The position numbers and the translations under genes were made by a program. 59,094 bases of DNA from Acidimicrobiales bacterium (lineage in GTDB: Bacteria; Actinomycetota; Acidimicrobiia; Acidimicrobiales; GCA-2861595): the NCBI GenBank assembly GCA_035540975.1, contig DATLFN010000085.1, positions 1 to 59,094 on the forward strand, read 5' to 3'. A model generated the notes under the pieces. That model had not been told where the DNA came from. It was given only the letters and a program-made list of their open reading frames with translations, and did not search any database. Below are positions 40,275-48,414 of the stretch, piece by piece. Position 1 is the first letter of the stretch. Each line of letters opens with the position of its first letter.

Positions 40275-40712
40275 CTACCCGCCGGCGGCGAAGGTGAACA
40301 GGATGCGGGCGTCGCACACGGCCCTGCCGTCCACCGTGGCCCGGGCGTCGCCCCACCCGCCCCGCATGCTCAGGCGCTCGATGAGGATCTCCAGCACCAG
40401 CTCGTCCCCGGGGCGCACCATGCGGCGGAAGCGGGCCTTGTCGAGGCCGCCGAACAGCGGGAGGCGGTCGGCGTGGTCGGGGTGGGCGCGCAGGGCCACG
40501 GCCCCGACCTGGGCCAGCGCCTCCAGCTGGATCACCGCCGGCAGCACGGGGTTGCCGGGGAAGTGGCCGGCCAGGAACGCCTCGTCGCCCGTCACCCGGT
40601 AGCGCCCGCGGCACGACCGCCCCGGCTCGCACGACTCCACCGAGTCGAGGAACCGGAACGGCGGGCGGTGCGGCAGCAGCGCCACGTACGGGTCGGGCGC
40701 CGCCCCCGTCAC
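40275..40712 (-). CDS. fabZ: FabZ-type (3R)-hydroxyacyl-ACP dehydratase
   Basis: A 145-aa hotdog protein. LLPHRPPFRFLDSVE and GHFPGNPVLPAVIQLEALAQ are FabZ signatures, with catalytic His in GHFPG and Glu in QLEALAQ; KARFRRMVRPGDEL follows. It dehydrates hydroxyacyl-ACP in the FAS II cycle. It overlaps the MerR regulator (GTGA at 40709-40712) and is divergent from the rest of the fatty acid cluster. Confidence 0.92.
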   Translation of the reverse strand: MTGAAPDPYVALLPHRPPFRFLDSVESCEPGRSCRGRYRVTGDEAFLAGHFPGNPVLPAVIQLEALAQVGAVALRAHPDHADRLPLFGGLDKARFRRMVRPGDELVLEILIERLSMRGGWGDARATVDGRAVCDARILFTFAAGG

Positions 40713-41509
40713 GGGACGGCCCGGGCCGGCACCTCGCCGGGGTCGACCCGGGCGCCGGCGCCGGCCCGGTGGCCGGCCACCTCCCGCAGCAGCGCCTCGC
40801 GCTCCTCGCCCGTCCCGAGCGACTCGATGCGGGCCTCCACCAGGTTCAGCATCATCCGTTCGACGCTGTACGACACCAGGCCGTTGGCGGCCTGGAGCAT
40901 GGCCTTGAGGGCGCTGACCAGGCGCGCCGCCTCCTCCTCGGCCGGCAGGTCGGCGTCGAGGAGCGGCTGGCGGACGTAGCGCAGGAACAGCTCGACGGCC
41001 CCCTCGGCCACCGCCGCCGCCGCGTCGATCTGGGTGCGGGCCACCCGCATGAAGTCCTCCAGGGGGACGCCGCCGCCGACGAGGGTGAGGACCATGCGCA
41101 CGGCCCGCACGTCGGCCGGCGTGTAGTAGCAGTCCCCGTCCGCCCGCAGGGGCCGCAGCAGGCCCGACGCCTCCAGGGACCGCAGCAGCGACGGCGGGAC
41201 GCGGGCGCGATCGGCCACCTGGTTGACGGTGAGCCGCTCGTCGTCGGCGGCGGCGGTGACCTCGCGCCCGGCGGGCCCGGCGCGCCCGCCCGACGGGTCG
41301 GACAGCATGACGGCGATGGCCTTCAGCGAGTGCCCCCGCTCCATGAGCTCGCGGATCGTCCGGAGCCGCTCGAGGTGGCGAGGGCCGTACAGGGCGACGC
41401 GCCCGGAGTGGCGCGGCGCGGGCAGGAGGCCCTTGGACTGGTACGACCGCACGACGTCGACCGTGACCCCCGCCGCCGCCGCCAGCTCGTCGACCCGCAG
41501 TTCGGGCAC
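40709..41509 (-). CDS. MerR-family regulator with two HTH domains
   Basis: A 266-aa regulator, GTG at 41509. The first MerR HTH is at about 4-70 (VDELAAAAGVTVDVVRSYQ, ALYGPRHLERLRTIRELM). A second, weaker HTH is at about 92-160 (LTVNQVADRARVPPSLLRSL, YTPADVRAVRMVLTL), followed by a helical domain with no metal-binding Cys cluster. Placement between fabZ and fabD suggests a lipid-synthesis regulator responding to an acyl or CoA ligand. A TAACGT element lies 6 nt before its start. Confidence 0.87.
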   Translation of the reverse strand: MPELRVDELAAAAGVTVDVVRSYQSKGLLPAPRHSGRVALYGPRHLERLRTIRELMERGHSLKAIAVMLSDPSGGRAGPAGREVTAAADDERLTVNQVADRARVPPSLLRSLEASGLLRPLRADGDCYYTPADVRAVRMVLTLVGGGVPLEDFMRVARTQIDAAAAVAEGAVELFLRYVRQPLLDADLPAEEEAARLVSALKAMLQAANGLVSYSVERMMLNLVEARIESLGTGEEREALLREVAGHRAGAGARVDPGEVPARAVP

Positions 41510-41515
41510 GGGCGC

Positions 41516-41521
41516 ACGTTA
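41516..41521 (-). promoter_or_regulatory. putative leaderless -10 element of merR-fabZ
   Basis: TAACGT on the minus strand lies exactly 6 nt before the GTG at 41509, identical in hexamer and spacing to the senX3 element. Confidence 0.45.
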
Positions 41522-41532
41522 ATACCCCGTTC

Positions 41533-41545
41533 TCGAATGATTCGA
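41533..41545. promoter_or_regulatory. palindrome in merR-fabD divergent promoter
   Basis: TCGAATGATTCGA is a perfect inverted repeat around one central base, 12 bp upstream of the proposed merR -10 and within the 111-bp gap to fabD. It is a candidate operator for the MerR regulator. Confidence 0.5.
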
Positions 41546-41620
41546 ACGAAACGTGTAACGATCCGCGAACGGCGGGGGTCGTACGGGGAACCAGCCGTTC
41601 AACGGAGAGGGTCGAACCGC

Positions 41621-42517
41621 GTGCCTGTAGGCGTCATGTTCCCCGGCCAGGGGGCCCAGAGGGCAGAGTTGGGCGCACCGTGGCGGGACGACCACGCGTG
41701 GTCGATCGTGGAGCGGGCCGAGGGCGTGCTCGACCGCTCGCTGTCGCCGTTGCTCCTCGACCCGGCGGCCTCGCTGGACCGCACCGAGGACGCCCAGCTG
41801 GCCGTCCTGCTGGCCTCGCTGATGGCGTGGGAGCGGGCCCGCCACGACCTCGGGGACTCGGTCGCCCTGGCCGGCCACTCGCTCGGCCAGGTCACCGCCC
41901 TCATCGCGGCGGGCGTCCTGCCCTTCGACGACGGCATCCGCCTGGCCGCCCGCCGGGCCCGGCACACCCAACGGGCCGCCGATCGCCGGGAAGGCCGGAT
42001 GGTCGCCCTCCTCGGCGCCCGGCCGGAGCAGGCCGAGCAGGTGTGCGCCGCCGCGCCCGACGCCTGCTGGGTCGCCAACGACAACGCCCCCGGGCAGATC
42101 GTGGTCGCCGGCACGCCCGATGGCATCGACGCCGCCGTGGTCGCCGCCCCCGCCGCCGGCGTCCGCCGCACCACCCGCCTTCAGGTGGGCGGGGCGTTCC
42201 ACACGCCCCTGATGGACGAGGCCCGGGCCGCGTTCGCTGAGGACCTGGCCACGGCGCCGCTGCGCCCGTCCGGCCCTCCGGTCGTCTCCAACGGCGACGC
42301 CCGGGCGTACAGCGACGGCGACGGATGGCGCACCCGGCTGGCCGACCACCTCGTGCGCCCCGTGCGCTGGCGGGAGTCGGTCGAGACGCTGGTGCGCCTG
42401 GGCGCCACCGAGCTGGTCGAGGTGGGACCGGGGAGCACGCTGGCCGGCCTGGCCAGGCGGATCGCTCCCGATGTGCACGTTCGCGGCACCGACGATCTCG
42501 TGGAGGCCCGGGCATGA
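41621..42517 (+). CDS. fabD: malonyl-CoA:ACP transacylase
   Basis: A 298-aa FabD, GTG at 41621. MFPGQGAQRAELG is at the N-terminus; the nucleophile Ser is in AGHSLGQVTAL, the malonate-binding region is ANDNAPGQIVVAG, and catalytic His is in GGAFHTPLM. It loads malonyl groups on ACP. First gene of the rightward FAS II operon; the next gene overlaps its stop (ATGA). Confidence 0.95.
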   Translation: MPVGVMFPGQGAQRAELGAPWRDDHAWSIVERAEGVLDRSLSPLLLDPAASLDRTEDAQLAVLLASLMAWERARHDLGDSVALAGHSLGQVTALIAAGVLPFDDGIRLAARRARHTQRAADRREGRMVALLGARPEQAEQVCAAAPDACWVANDNAPGQIVVAGTPDGIDAAVVAAPAAGVRRTTRLQVGGAFHTPLMDEARAAFAEDLATAPLRPSGPPVVSNGDARAYSDGDGWRTRLADHLVRPVRWRESVETLVRLGATELVEVGPGSTLAGLARRIAPDVHVRGTDDLVEARA

Positions 42518-42780
42518 CGATCCTGTCGCACGGTGAACAGCTGGGCGTGCCCGAGCGGGTGATCGTGGCGCCCGCCCTGGGCGTCTTCCGCCCCGTCGAC
42601 GACGCCCCGCCCCCCGAGGGCAAGGTCGTCCGGAAGGGCGACGTGGTGGGCGTGGTCGAGGTCGGCGGCCGCACCGTGCCCGTCCGCAGCGCCTTCACCG
42701 GCCGGCTCCTCGGGATGATGGCGCACGCCGGCGAGCGCGTGCGCGAGAACCAGCCGGTGGCCTGGCTGCGGGTGCACTGA
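42514..42780 (+). CDS. biotinyl/lipoyl-fold protein lacking the modified lysine
   Basis: An 88-aa single-domain protein, ATG at 42514 overlapping the fabD stop. VIVAPALGVFRP, VVRKGDVVGVVEV and FTGRLLGMMAHAGERV, then ENQPVAWL, follow the biotin carboxyl carrier fold. The place of the biotinylation motif AMKM is occupied by VGGR, so no lysine is available there. It therefore cannot be a conventional BCCP. It may be structural or regulatory for the carboxyltransferase at 46033 or for ACP-dependent enzymes; this is inference. Confidence 0.8.
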   Translation: MTILSHGEQLGVPERVIVAPALGVFRPVDDAPPPEGKVVRKGDVVGVVEVGGRTVPVRSAFTGRLLGMMAHAGERVRENQPVAWLRVH

Positions 42781-42781
42781 C

Positions 42782-43723
42782 TTGGCCGTCGCCATCCTCG
42801 GCCTCGGCATGGCCGTGCCCGAGACCCGGCTCACCAACGCCGATCTCGAGCAGATGCTCGACACCAGCGACTCGTGGATCGTCGAGCGCACCGGCATCCG
42901 CGAGCGGCGCGTCGCCGGGCCGGACGAGACCTCGGCGACCCTCGGCGCCGCCGCCGGCGCCGCCGCCATCAAGGACGCCGGCCTCACGCCGGGCGACATC
43001 GGCCTGGTGATGGTCGCCACCTGCACACCGGTGCAGGTCCTGCCGTCCACCGCCGCCCTCGTCCAGGAGGCCCTGGGGCTGCGCTGCGGGGCGCTGGACG
43101 TGGGCGCCGCCTGCGCCGGCTTCGTGTACGGGCTGGTGGCGTCGGCCGGCATGGGCGCCGGCCAGCCGACCCTGCTCATCGGCACCGAGACCCTCACCCG
43201 CATCACCGACCCCGACGACCGCGCCACGCGCATCCTGTTCGGCGACGGCGCGGGGGCGGCCGTGGTCGGCCCGCCGGCCGACCCCGACGCCGGCCTGCTG
43301 GCCTGGGACCTGGGCTGCGACGGCTCCGCCGCCCCGCTGCTCGAGGTGCCCGTGGGCGACCGCTACATGCGCATGGAGGGCAGCGAGGTGTTCCGCCGGG
43401 CGGTGCGGATCGTGGTCGACTCGGCCGCCGTCACCCTGGAGCGGGCCGGCCTCGGCTCCGACGACGTCACCCTCTTCGTGCCCCACCAGGCCAACGTGCG
43501 GATCATCGACGCCAGCTGCTCGCGCCTCGGCATCCCCGTCGAGCGCACGGCGGTCAACCTGGACCGGTACGGCAACACGTCGGCCGCGTCCATCCCCATG
43601 GCGCTGGCCGAGGCGTCCGAGGCGGGCCGCCTGAGGCGGGGCGACGTGGTCCTGCTGTCGGGCTTCGGCGCCGGCATGACGTGGGCCAGCGCCCTGCTGC
43701 GCTGGGACGGCGAGCCGGCGTGA
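42782..43723 (+). CDS. fabH: beta-ketoacyl-ACP synthase III
   Basis: A 313-aa KAS III, TTG start at 42782 one base after the previous stop. Catalytic Cys is in VGAACAGFVYGL, His in LFVPHQANVRII, and Asn in DRYGNTSAASIP. DSWIVERTGIRERR is the usual N-terminal signature. It starts fatty acid synthesis by condensing acyl-CoA with malonyl-ACP. The stop overlaps fabG (GTGA). Confidence 0.95.
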   Translation: MAVAILGLGMAVPETRLTNADLEQMLDTSDSWIVERTGIRERRVAGPDETSATLGAAAGAAAIKDAGLTPGDIGLVMVATCTPVQVLPSTAALVQEALGLRCGALDVGAACAGFVYGLVASAGMGAGQPTLLIGTETLTRITDPDDRATRILFGDGAGAAVVGPPADPDAGLLAWDLGCDGSAAPLLEVPVGDRYMRMEGSEVFRRAVRIVVDSAAVTLERAGLGSDDVTLFVPHQANVRIIDASCSRLGIPVERTAVNLDRYGNTSAASIPMALAEASEAGRLRRGDVVLLSGFGAGMTWASALLRWDGEPA

Positions 43724-44475
43724 CGCCGCCCGGGGCGAGCGCCGAGGGCGCCCGCCGGGTCGCACTGGTCACCGGCGGCTCGGGCGGGATCGGCCGGGCG
43801 ACGGCGGCGGCGCTGGCCGCCGACGGGCACCGGGTCGCCGTCGGCTACGGCGGGAACCGCGAGTCGGCCGAGAAGACGGCCGCCGAGCTGGGCGGGGTCG
43901 CCGTGCACGTCGACGTCACCGACCCGGCGTCGGTGGACGCGGCGTTCGGCGAGGTCGAGCAGGCGCTGGGCCCCGTCGAGATCGTCGTGAACAACGCCGG
44001 CATCAACGCCGACGGGCTGCTCCTGCGCATGGGCGAGGAGCAGTGGCGCTCGGTGGTGGCGACCAACCTGGACGGCGCCTACCGGGTGAGCAAGCGGGCC
44101 GCCTCGGGGATGGTGCGGCGCCGGTGGGGCCGGATCGTCAACATGGGCTCGGTGGTCGGCTCCACCGGCGCACCCGGCCAGGCCAACTACGCGGCGACCA
44201 AGGCCGGGCTCATCGGGCTGACCCGCTCGCTCGCCCGGGAGCTGGGCTCGCGGGGCATCACCGTGAACCTGGTCGCTCCCGGGCCCATCGCCACCGCCAT
44301 GATCGACGCGGTGGGCGAGGACCGCCGTGCGGAAATGACGGCAGCCGTGCCGCTGGGGAGAATGGGCGCCCCCGAGGAGGTGGGCGCGGTGGTCGCCTTC
44401 TTGTGCTCCGAGGGGGCCGCCTACGTCACGGGAGCCGTCGTGCCCGTCGACGGCGGCCTGGGTATGGGTCATTGA
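43720..44475 (+). CDS. fabG: 3-oxoacyl-ACP reductase
   Basis: A 251-aa SDR reductase, GTG at 43720. LVTGGSGGIGRAT binds NADPH; NNAGINADGLLLRM and the catalytic set in MGSVVGSTGAPGQANYAATK are typical FabG. The end is VTGAVVPVDGGLGMGH. It reduces 3-oxoacyl-ACP in the FAS II cycle. Position between fabH and acpP supports the assignment over other SDRs. Confidence 0.94.
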   Translation: MTPPGASAEGARRVALVTGGSGGIGRATAAALAADGHRVAVGYGGNRESAEKTAAELGGVAVHVDVTDPASVDAAFGEVEQALGPVEIVVNNAGINADGLLLRMGEEQWRSVVATNLDGAYRVSKRAASGMVRRRWGRIVNMGSVVGSTGAPGQANYAATKAGLIGLTRSLARELGSRGITVNLVAPGPIATAMIDAVGEDRRAEMTAAVPLGRMGAPEEVGAVVAFLCSEGAAYVTGAVVPVDGGLGMGH

Positions 44476-44520: not shown

Positions 44521-44772
44521 ATGGAACGAGCCGATGTGCTGACCGCGGTGCAGGAGTCCGCCAAGGAGGTGCTGGGCGTCGACGCCGGCGCCGTGGTGGA
44601 GGACGCCCGCTTCAAGGACGACCTGGACGCCGACAGCCTCGACCTGGTGGAGATGGTGATGGCGCTCGAGGAGCGCTTCGAGGTGACGATCCCCGAGGAG
44701 GAGCTGGGCGGGATCGAGACGGTCGGCCAGGCCGTCGACGTGGTCCTCGGCAAGCTCCAAGTGGGCACGTGA
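44521..44772 (+). CDS. acpP: acyl carrier protein
   Basis: An 83-aa acidic ACP, ATG at 44521 preceded by AAGGGA. The phosphopantetheine Ser is S39 in [18 protein letters not shown]. It shuttles acyl intermediates between the enzymes encoded on both sides. Its stop overlaps fabF by GTGA. Confidence 0.97.
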
Positions 44773-46022
44773 GCAAGGGAACCACGGACCACCGCGGCCG
44801 CCCGCGGGTGGCGGTCACCGGCCTGGGCGTCAAGACCCCGGCGGGCAACGACCTGGCCTCGTTCTGGGCGACCGTCCTGGAGGGCCGGCCCACCGCCGGG
44901 CCGATCACCCGGTACGACGCCTCCGACCAGCCGGTGGCGTTCGCCTGCGAGGTGGCCGGGTTCGACCCCGCCGACTACTTCGGCCACAAGGAGGCCCGCC
45001 GCGCCGACCGCGTCACCCAGCTGGGCTTCGCGGCGGCCACCGACGCGCTGGCCGACGCCGGCGAGCTCGGCATCGACCCCAACCGGTGCGGCGTGGTGGC
45101 CGGGACCGGGGTCGGAGGACTGTGGACGCAGGAGGAGGAGGAGAAGGTCCTCTTCGAGCGGGGGCCCACCCGGGTCAGCCCGTTCCTCGTCCCCATGATG
45201 ATGGCGAACGCCACCGCCGGCACCATCGCCATGCGCCACGGCTGGAAGGGCCCGAACATCTGCATCGCCACCGCCTGCGCGGCGGGCACCCACGCCGTGG
45301 GCGAGGCGCTCCGGTTCATCCGCGACGGCTCGGCCGACGTCGTGCTGGCCGGTGGCGCCGAGGCCGCCATCACGCCCGTCGCCATGGCCGCCTTCGCCCG
45401 CATGGGGGCGCTCAGCGGCCGGGCCGACGACCCGCGGCGCGCCTCGCGCCCGTTCGACCCCGAGCGGGACGGCTTCGTCATGGGCGAGGGCGCCGGCTTC
45501 CTGGTCCTCGAGCGCTGGGACCTGGCCGTGGCCCGCGGCGCCCGGATCCACGGCGAGATCCTCGGCTACGGGCGCAACTCCGACGCCCACCACATCACCG
45601 CGCCCACCCCCGACGGCAGCGGGGCGGTGGCCTGCATGGAGCTGGCCCTGGAGGACGCCGGCCTGGGCGCCGCCGACATCGGCCACGTCAACGCCCACGG
45701 CACGTCCACGCCCCTCAACGACGCCGCCGAGGCCGAGGCCCTGGTCAAGGTCTTCGCCGGCGACCCGCCGCCGGTGACCTCGATGAAGGGCGTCACCGGC
45801 CACCTCATCGGCGCCGCCGGCGCCGTCGAGGCCGTCGGCAGCCTGCTCTCCGCCCGCGACGGCAAGGTGCCGCCCACCGCCAACCACGAGCGCACCGACC
45901 CCGGCATCAGCATCGACGTGGTGCACGGCTCGGCTCGCGACGTCACCGGGCCGGTCGTGTCGAACTCGTTCGGCTTCGGCGGCCACAACGCCACCCTCGT
46001 CATCGCCCCTGTGACCGGGTGA
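44769..46022 (+). CDS. fabF: beta-ketoacyl-ACP synthase II
   Basis: A 417-aa KAS II, GTG at 44769. Catalytic Cys is in [12 protein letters not shown], and the two His are in [11 protein letters not shown] and [34 protein letters not shown] and [13 protein letters not shown] are standard landmarks. It elongates the acyl chain. It is translationally coupled to acpP, and the carboxyltransferase gene follows after 10 bp. Confidence 0.96.
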
Positions 46023-46032
46023 CGAGCAGCCG

Positions 46033-47466
46033 GTGACCCAGGCGTTCGAGCTCGACGCCCCGGCGGTGCCGCCGGGGGGTCGGGTGGTGGACGGCCTGGC
46101 CGGCGTGGCGCTGGCCCGCCGGAGGGCGTCGGCCGCCCGGGCCGAGATCGCCGAGGTCGACGGCCGCTCGTACGGGCTGTTCCGCCTCGGTGGCGGCGAG
46201 CACCGGGGGGCCATCGGGCCGGCCGAGGGCGACACCGTCAGCCGCCTGGTCACCACCGCCACCGACCTCGGCGTGCCCGTGATCGGCGTGGTCGCCACGT
46301 CCGGCGCCGACGTCGGCCACGGCGTCGACTCCCTCCACGCCTGGGGCCGGATCGCCCGCGCCGTCACCGCCGCCTCGGGCGTCGTCCCCGTCGCCCTGGT
46401 GGTGAGCGGCCCGTGCCTGTCGGGGCCCGCCCTGCTGCTCGGCCTGGCCGACGTGGTGGTCGTCACCGACCGGTCGTACGCCTACGTGAGCGGCCCGGCC
46501 GGGGTCCGAGGCTTCACCGGCCAGGAGGTCACCCACGAGGCGCTGGGTGGCGCCGCCGTGCACGTCACCCGCACCGGCGTGGCGTGGGCCACGGCCCGCG
46601 ACGAGGACGAGGCGCTGGCCCTGGCGCTGGACGTGCTCGCCTACCTGCCGCCCAACAACGGCGAGGAGCCGCCCGCCCGCCGGGTCGACGACCCCGTGGA
46701 CCGGGACACGGCCGCCGCGGCGGCCGCCGTGCCCGCCCGCGCCACCGCGTCCTACGACGTGCGGGTGGTCGTGGAGGACGTGGTCGACGCCGGGACCTTC
46801 GTCGAGGTGAGGGCGCCCCACGCCCCGAGCATGGTGACCGGCCTCGCCACCATCGGCGGCATGCCCGTCGGCGTCCTGGCCAACCAGCCGCGGGTGATGG
46901 CGGGCACCATCGACATCGACGCCTCCCGCAAGGCCGCCCGGTTCGTGCAGCTGTGCGACGCGTTCAACGTCCCGCTGCTCACCTTCGTGGACACGCCCGG
47001 GTTCCAGCCCGGCAAGGACATCGAGTGGCGGGGGATGATCCGCCACTGCGCCGAGCTGGTGCACGCCTACGCCGCCGCCACCGTGCCCCGGGTGTCGGTG
47101 GTCCTGCGCAAGGCGTACGGCGGGGCCTACATCGTGATGGACTCGCGCGGCCTGGGCGGCGACGTGAGCCTGGCGTGGCCGGGTGCCGAGGTCGCCGTCA
47201 TGGGGCCGGCAGGCGCCGTGAGCATCCTGCACGGCCGGACGCTGGCCGCCGTCGACGACCCCGAGGAGCGGGAGAAGCAGCGCCGGCTCCTGGAGGAGGA
47301 CTACGCGGCCCGCTACTGCTCGTCGCTGGTGGCGGCCGAGCGGGGCTTCGTGGACGACGTCATCGACCCCGCCGACACCCGCCGCGCCGTCGCCGCCGCG
47401 TTCACCGCCCTGCGCACCAAACGCGAACGCCACCCCCGCCGCCGCCACTCGAACACGCCGCTGTGA
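46033..47466 (+). CDS. accD: acyl-CoA carboxylase carboxyltransferase (AccD/PccB type)
   Basis: A 477-aa carboxyltransferase with both crotonase-like halves in one chain, GTG at 46033. The C-terminal half is strongly conserved (FVDTPGFQPGKDIEW, VSVVLRKAYGGAYIVMDSR, WPGAEVAVMGPAGAV). The N-terminal half is shorter and more divergent than in PccB. It would transfer CO2 from biotin to acetyl-CoA to give malonyl-CoA. No biotin carboxylase is in the window and the linked BCCP-like gene has no biotin site, so a biotin-carboxylase/carrier subunit must be encoded elsewhere. Confidence 0.88.
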   Translation: MTQAFELDAPAVPPGGRVVDGLAGVALARRRASAARAEIAEVDGRSYGLFRLGGGEHRGAIGPAEGDTVSRLVTTATDLGVPVIGVVATSGADVGHGVDSLHAWGRIARAVTAASGVVPVALVVSGPCLSGPALLLGLADVVVVTDRSYAYVSGPAGVRGFTGQEVTHEALGGAAVHVTRTGVAWATARDEDEALALALDVLAYLPPNNGEEPPARRVDDPVDRDTAAAAAAVPARATASYDVRVVVEDVVDAGTFVEVRAPHAPSMVTGLATIGGMPVGVLANQPRVMAGTIDIDASRKAARFVQLCDAFNVPLLTFVDTPGFQPGKDIEWRGMIRHCAELVHAYAAATVPRVSVVLRKAYGGAYIVMDSRGLGGDVSLAWPGAEVAVMGPAGAVSILHGRTLAAVDDPEEREKQRRLLEEDYAARYCSSLVAAERGFVDDVIDPADTRRAVAAAFTALRTKRERHPRRRHSNTPL

Positions 47467-47646: not shown

Positions 47647-48414
47647 GTGCTGCTTGAAGGCAAGAAGCTCCTGGTCACGGGTGTGCTCACGGAGACCTCG
47701 ATCGCCTACTCCGTCGCCCGGTTGGCGCAGGAGCAGGGGGCGGAGATCGTCCTGACGTCGTTCGGGCGGCCGATGAGCCTCACCCGGCGGGCGGCGCGAC
47801 GGCTGCCGGCCGAGCCCGACGTGCTCGAGCTGGACGTGACCCTCCCGGAGCACCTGGCCCGACTGACCGGCGACCTCGAGCAGCGGTGGGGCAGGCTGGA
47901 CGGGGTCGTCCACGCCATCGGCTTCGCCCCCGAGGCGTGCCTGGGCGGCGACTTCCTCAAGGCCGGCTGGGCCGACGTGTCGACCGCCCTGCACGTGTCC
48001 GCCTACTCCCTCAAGGCGCTGGCCGAGGCGGCCCTGCCGTTGATGAAGGGGGCCGGCGGCTCGATCGTGGCGCTCGACTTCGACGCCACCCGGGCGTGGC
48101 CCGGGTACGACTGGATGGGCGTGGCCAAGGCGGCCCTGGAGTCCACCGCCCGCTACCTCGCCCGCGACCTCGGCCCCGCCGGCATCCGGGTGAACCTGGT
48201 GTGCGCCGGCCCGATCCGCACGGTCGCCGCCCGCTCCATCCCCGGGTTCTCGACCTTCGAGGAGGCGTGGGCCGGGCGGGCGCCCCTGGGCTGGGACACC
48301 GGCGACGCCGAGCCGGTGTCCAAGGCGGTCGTGGCCCTGCTCTCCGACTGGTTCCCGGCCACCACGGGGGCGATGGTCCACGTCGACGGCGGCTACCACG
48401 CCATGGGGGCGTGA
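47647..48414 (+). CDS. fabI: enoyl-ACP reductase (FabI/InhA type)
   Basis: A 255-aa atypical SDR, GTG at 47647. LLEGKKLLVTGVLTETSIAY is the FabI/InhA nucleotide-binding start. HAIGFAPEACLGGDF, ALDFDATRAWPGYDWMGVAK (Tyr and Lys of the active site) and GPIRTVAARSIPGF are InhA-like. It reduces trans-2-enoyl-ACP with NADH and completes the FAS II set. It is separated from accD by the hairpin chain, which may uncouple its expression. Confidence 0.95.
   Translation: MLLEGKKLLVTGVLTETSIAYSVARLAQEQGAEIVLTSFGRPMSLTRRAARRLPAEPDVLELDVTLPEHLARLTGDLEQRWGRLDGVVHAIGFAPEACLGGDFLKAGWADVSTALHVSAYSLKALAEAALPLMKGAGGSIVALDFDATRAWPGYDWMGVAKAALESTARYLARDLGPAGIRVNLVCAGPIRTVAARSIPGFSTFEEAWAGRAPLGWDTGDAEPVSKAVVALLSDWFPATTGAMVHVDGGYHAMGA

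Follow-up and report, generated by a model that had tools for sequence, protein, structure and literature searches.

The window, a 59,094-nucleotide stretch of DNA from a bacterium of the Acidimicrobiales, carries an operon for type II fatty acid synthesis (FAS II) in which a gene for an 88-residue protein, P0001, lies between fabD and fabH. P0001 resembles a biotin carboxyl carrier protein (BCCP) and has a glycine where the biotin-bearing lysine should be, which raises the question of what such a domain does beside a malonyl-CoA:ACP transacylase. The genes on which the argument draws were assigned as follows.

40275-40712, minus strand: FabZ/FabA-like dehydratase, divergent (PF07977)
40709-41509, minus strand: MerR-type regulator, divergent from fabD (PF13411)
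41621-42517, plus strand: fabD, malonyl-CoA:ACP transacylase (TIGR00128, 222.5 bits, under the cut-off of 260.9; start codon uncertain)
42514-42780, plus strand: pseudo-BCCP gene (P0001, 88 aa, ATG to TGA), biotinyl-domain fold without the biotinyl lysine
42658-42672, plus strand: EVGGR codons of P0001 (residues 49-53, hairpin tip), aligned with EAMKM of the genome's own BCCP
42782-43723, plus strand: fabH, beta-ketoacyl-ACP synthase III (PRK09352, 367.9 bits)
43720-44475, plus strand: fabG, named from likeness and position
44521-44772, plus strand: acpP, acyl carrier protein, with a DSLD motif that we take to be the mark of such a carrier; used as the ACP query
44769-46022, plus strand: fabF, beta-ketoacyl-ACP synthase II, named from its sequence; used as the FabF query
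46033-47466, plus strand: acyl-CoA carboxylase carboxyltransferase, AccD6-like, single chain (PF01039, 395 bits, E 4.5e-118)
47647-48414, plus strand: fabI/inhA-like enoyl-ACP reductase (PRK07889, 416 bits)

The operon runs in the order fabD, P0001, fabH, fabG, acpP, fabF, single-chain carboxyltransferase, fabI. The stop codon of fabD (TGA, 42515-42517) lies on the start codon of the P0001 gene (ATG, 42514-42516) in a four-base ATGA overlap, the fabH start follows one base after the P0001 stop, and the fabG start and fabH end share a GTGA overlap. The overlap agrees with the translational coupling to fabD claimed in an earlier note on this DNA, and the presence of a carboxyltransferase gene downstream with no biotin carboxylase gene between was borne out. 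The note's use of that missing biotin carboxylase as an argument proved weak, however, and we rejected it as a clue, since the genome encodes its own biotin carboxylase with a true MKM biotinyl domain as a BC-BCCP fusion on contig C88; mycobacteria likewise have a carboxyltransferase gene (accD6) in the fab operon without a biotin carboxylase gene. Scans of positions 41400 to 43000, of limited worth for such signals, gave no sigma-70-like promoter and no terminator. The divergent MerR and FabZ-like genes (40275-41509) recur beside the free form of the domain in relatives, both of them at one locus (L060), the FabZ-like gene at three others (L052, L083, L096) and the MerR gene at another (L081), and given this recurrence the MerR regulator may control the fabD operon.

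Structure prediction, in which a different fold would have refuted the earlier note, returned a biotinyl-domain fold. The AF2 model of P0001 has a pLDDT of 93.4 and a pTM of 0.80, its top nine Foldseek matches are all biotinyl domains (1bdo, E 4.7e-6), and it superposes on E. coli BCCP (4hr7_G) with a VIA Z of 12.6 and 1.5 A over 73 residues; on the strength of the model and these matches a different fold was ruled out. Taken singly, the sequence falls short of the curated Pfam and NCBIfam cut-offs for BCCP, scoring 17.2 bits against Pfam Biotin_lipoyl (PF00364; cut-off 22.1, E 0.0045) and 26.1 of the 87 bits needed for PRK07051. Although the Pfam match is below its cut-off, family profiles agree with the predicted fold in upholding the biotinyl-domain pattern that had been noted at 42514-42780. 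A profile of 28 homologues retrieved by P0001 itself (A1), an unbiased alignment in that no pattern selected its rows, matched the Pyrococcus horikoshii BCCP domain at E 2e-4, and a 38-row profile spanning further classes of the phylum (A5) matched the transcarboxylase 1.3S subunit at E 1.4e-13, 2d5d at 4e-10 and E. coli AccB (1a6x) at 5e-9. Because A1 gives P0001 114 bits and the real BCCP of the same genome about 10 bits, it tells the P0001 family from true BCCP.

The earlier note had read VGGR in P0001 where AMKM should stand, and the alignment agrees: EVGGR occupies the place of EAMKM in the genome's own BCCP (VLEAMKMENN, contig C88), so that the lysine is replaced by glycine. We examined the biotinyl-lysine column in 176 distinct sequences from 178 loci, a set that includes two YqeB proteins (L200, L201) that are not family members, and found a gap in 127, glycine in 34, another residue in 15 and lysine in none. 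An [ASV]MK motif occurs in 0 of these 176 sequences, and a lysine within three columns of the biotinyl position in 11. The lipoyl lysine, which falls in the same column when the genome's own E2 (TDKVD) and GcvH (ESTKS) are aligned, is likewise absent from the hairpin. P0001 lacks the lysine that defines a BCCP and so is not one; for want of any lysine at the carrier column we rejected it as a true BCCP or lipoyl protein. YqeB (TIGR03309), the barrel-sandwich part of which also lacks the carrier lysine and matches the profile, differs in being about 280 residues long, in being named for molybdenum-cofactor maturation, and in its other architecture and context.

It was conceivable that the domain is a true carrier modified at some other lysine, or a decaying relic. 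P0001 does have two lysines of its own, K37 and K41, but neither is conserved, no column of the 97 aligned domains is more than 7% lysine, and 57 of the 97 contain no lysine at all; for the family, these alignments exclude a second conserved lysine that could take biotin, the other finding that would have refuted the earlier note. Decay is contradicted by the conservation of the domain and by a dN/dS of 0.16-0.50 among five close homologues, from which we conclude, on sequence comparison, that P0001 is under purifying selection; a pseudogene or chance open reading frame was rejected on the same ratio and on the conservation of homologues across many genomes. The probability that the domain is such a carrier or relic is therefore very remote, and we regard its anatomy, a BCCP-type domain without a biotinylation site that forms a FabD module, as close to certain.

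How widely the domain occurs was assessed by profile and sequence search. P0001 found a match at E <= 1 in 57 of 59 relatives, some of them weak. At E <= 1e-8 the domain is present in 115 of 296 genomes of the class (a hand count that leaves out matches with E between 1e-8 and 1e-3), and 65 of 396 genomes of the phylum match at E <= 1e-7. One group of weak class matches that we checked (f59) turned out to be a lipoyl domain (TDKVD, L209). FabD is found at 1e-40 in 113 of the 115 domain-bearing genomes of the class (the exceptions being G209 and G255) as against 149 of the 181 others, in a hand comparison of lineages that are not independent. Several lineages of the class without the domain keep a plain fabD-fabH-fabG-acpP-fabF operon (L203-L208), so the domain is not essential to FAS II generally. 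One lineage without the domain (f19) has no FabD at 1e-40; in a genome of this lineage (G233) a weak FabD-like match (C1:1680411-1681181) lies inside a 3082-residue frame that is perhaps a type I synthase. In a genus of another family (f22, g64; L159-L161, L217) FabD is plain and without the domain, fabG is the next gene and fabH is missing there, so that the domain and fabH are lost together; L047, however, retains the domain with fabG next.

The earlier note had asked whether the gene occurs regularly between fabD and fabH, and this is mostly what is found where the domain is not fused to FabD. Among the 30 best loci (L005-L034) the domain forms the C-terminus of a fused FabD in 16 and is free directly after fabD in 13, and fabH is the next gene in all 30. 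We also scanned the genome_contigs collection with a DNA pattern drawn from the C-terminal part of the domain, which demands roughly E-R-[VL]-x3-Q-P-[VI]-A-W-L-R, so that these residues are conserved by construction at the loci it retrieved (L038-L156). The scan gave at least 119 stretches, the domain being present in at least 118; L111, from Bacteroides, was set aside as a chance match. Fusion to FabD is seen in 104 of the 118 listed pattern loci and a free gene after fabD in 7, while 7 have no visible fabD (5 of these are cut by a contig end), and fabH comes next in 97 of the 101 listed loci with at least 700 bases downstream. The locus sets overlap, L008/L060/L216, L010/L050 and L104/L218 apparently being the same contigs to judge by their lengths. 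The order fabD-domain-fabH also occurs outside the class: the 30 loci from its edge or beyond (L173-L202) comprise 5 fused forms, 16 free after fabD and 9 that are neither, the last including the two YqeB loci. The window gene, with its ATGA overlap, belongs to the FabD-linked family as we propose to delimit it, namely domains that either form part of a FabD fusion or have their own gene directly after fabD.

Desertimonas flava (L107) is an isolate with a fused FabD-domain protein, and the fusion is therefore not a metagenome artefact. Its FabD part is ordinary, scoring 282.6 bits against TIGR00128 and matching 3hjv, 1mla and 6u0j as best folds, with the highest-ranked solved FabD chains covering about 305 alignment columns where the fusion has 395 residues; what sets it apart from FabD elsewhere is the additional C-terminal domain, which matched no model when the fusion was searched against Pfam and NCBIfam and only acyltransferase/FabD-type models were returned. 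The AF2 model of the fusion (pTM 0.77) consists of FabD and a separate domain joined by a linker, residues 311-319, of pLDDT below 50. Since the domain is not confidently packed against FabD in this model, no contact site on FabD can be named, and the pTM is about what FabD alone would give, which suggests that no fixed contact is predicted. The Gln, Ser, Arg and His positions of FabD, which we take to be the catalytic ones, are intact both in the FabD of the window and in the fused form. The hairpin is shortened in the main fused group.

A tree of 88 FabD sequences, with an uncertain root and partial branch support, requires at least two changes of the fused or free state, and places the 19 free forms of the group that includes the window among fused ones. 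This nesting suggests that the free form of the window may have arisen by fission. The likely course, read from sequences, would begin with a free gene in the phylum, which was fused to fabD in an ancestor of the Acidimicrobiia and later separated again in the group that includes the window.

The domain gene adjoins a carboxyltransferase gene at three loci, in the genomes G209 (L104/L218), G584 (L192/L213) and G515 (L202). In G515 the domain is present between fabD and fabH too (L191), and on contig C173 of this genome (L202:297-2069) a second lysine-less biotinyl-like protein, a 251-residue frame, directly follows an accA-type gene (PF03255, 383.7 bits). In G012 (L216) the domain lies within a fabH-fabG-acpP-fabF-accD-fabI operon and fabD is on another contig; this operon and the carboxyltransferase neighbours point to a role beyond FabD, and taken together with the fusion to FabD they suggest a module that acts at the step between carboxylase and FabD. 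No accD was found in the fetched spans, of up to 8 kb, around the 104 listed fused pattern loci. We used TIGR00531 to ask whether the domain stands in for a lost stand-alone AccB. A stand-alone BCCP scores above 70 bits with this model in 5 of the 296 class genomes (G245, G238, G254, G252, G261) among the matches listed; the others listed score at most 57 bits and are mostly frames of about 600 residues that we read as BC-BCCP fusions, which occur in lineages with and without the domain. This distribution speaks neither for nor against such a replacement.

The domain is found in other settings as well. In two genomes of the class a homologue (L211:5010-5507, L212:5088-5414) lies between efp/nusB-like and pyrR-like genes on the opposite strand, these neighbours being named by eye, and fabD is on another contig. 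In G353 (contig C117; L195/L210) a 521-residue frame ends in the domain and shows neither FabD nor any other family bar a weak HlyD_3 match; FabD is encoded elsewhere in that genome.

The fusion to FabD in most relatives and the position between fabD and fabH in most others give good support to the suggestion in the earlier note that the protein is a new component of FAS II, and we consider a FAS II role very probable. The note's other suggestion, a scaffold or inhibitor of acetyl-CoA carboxylase, is possible; the three loci with a carboxyltransferase neighbour bear on it. As to what that role might be, the reading that we favour, at a confidence close to even though short of it, is that P0001 is a non-biotinylated, BCCP-derived module that docks FabD to a partner, most likely an acyl-CoA carboxylase. 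With its biotinylation site lost, the domain would serve as a module of FabD, carried in most Acidimicrobiia that have it as the C-terminal part of the enzyme on a short flexible linker, and in the window's lineage by a separate gene that the ATGA overlap would couple to fabD. With no cofactor to carry, its work would be binding, and it might dock FabD at the step from acetyl-CoA through malonyl-CoA to malonyl-ACP by way of the carboxyltransferase or biotin carboxylase face that normally receives the true BCCP, so that malonyl-CoA would be made close to its consumer and the effect would be positive. That the carboxylase is the binding partner is possible, with the balance tilted against it, and the fullest form of the proposal, a dead BCCP that tethers the carboxylase to FabD so that malonyl-CoA is handed over within one loose assembly, in kind a counterpart of plant BADC, is doubtful. 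Several observations count against it: no accD was seen in the spans of up to 8 kb around the listed fused loci, several lineages of the class have the fab operon without the domain, the AF2 model names no site on FabD, and G012 and other genomes in which the domain is away from fabD argue against a part that serves FabD only.

The last of these weighs also on the rather unlikely alternative in which the domain acts inside FabD alone, in folding, oligomer state or ACP docking, with no carboxylase involved. The prevalence of fusion in both the pattern loci and the close relatives, the overlap of the two genes in the window and the intact catalytic positions of FabD in both forms would all fit such a part, yet the domain is kept in the fabD-less operon of G012 and beside accD in L104/L218 and L192/L213, AF2 gives it no firm packing on FabD, and the FabD of L203-L208 does without it. 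FabD is a plausible control point, and a sensor of a small ligand such as acyl-CoA or acyl-ACP that tunes its activity would account for the conservation in A1, which is not pattern-selected, of R15, E74, R75 and W84 beyond the glycines of the fold; we think this the least probable of the functional readings, for we found no ligand-binding precedent for a biotinyl domain and conservation of the ER pair does not extend beyond the class.

Comparison with known proteins bears on one further reading. P0001 shares fold and sequence family with BCCP (AccB, and the corresponding part of AccA3-type biotin carboxylases) and is likewise tied to fatty acid synthesis genes, but its family lacks the biotinyl lysine and is attached to FabD rather than to biotin carboxylase. 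The plant BADC proteins, as described in PMC11926652, are BCCP homologues without the AMKL motif that bind BCCP and biotin carboxylase and serve as assembly 'glue' or inhibitors. Compared by description, P0001 resembles them in kind, being a relative of BCCP that lacks the biotinylation motif and is linked to fatty acid synthesis, and they are the closest described analogue; they differ in being plant proteins that stand alone and belong to a carboxylase of several subunits, and the P0001 family is bacterial and consists of 88-residue proteins or C-terminal parts of FabD. A regulator of this sort would fill the BCCP site of the carboxylase and slow the enzyme or help to assemble it, with FabD as carrier or sensor. 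The same change in a homologue acting on a fatty-acid carboxylase and the carboxyltransferase neighbours at three loci speak for it, but BADC proteins were described with a multi-subunit plant enzyme and BCCP here is mostly contained in BC-BCCP-like frames of about 600 residues, and inhibition alone would leave the fusion to FabD unexplained; we consider it improbable, if slightly less so than the ligand sensor. Docking of FabD to a partner stays our preferred reading, at the strength given above.

The usual view takes FabD for an enzyme of one domain and the biotinyl domain for a carrier. In our search of the open-access literature (PMC) we found no account of a FabD with a biotinyl domain. 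Domain annotation misses the module, as Pfam and NCBIfam give just acyltransferase/FabD-type models for the D. flava fusion, and the genome of that isolate offers a simple natural fusion for study. The domain is a real accessory part of bacterial fatty acid synthesis and an apparently undescribed one. That several classes of one phylum have a biotinyl domain without its lysine on FabD suggests a link, physical or regulatory, between malonyl-CoA supply and FAS II.
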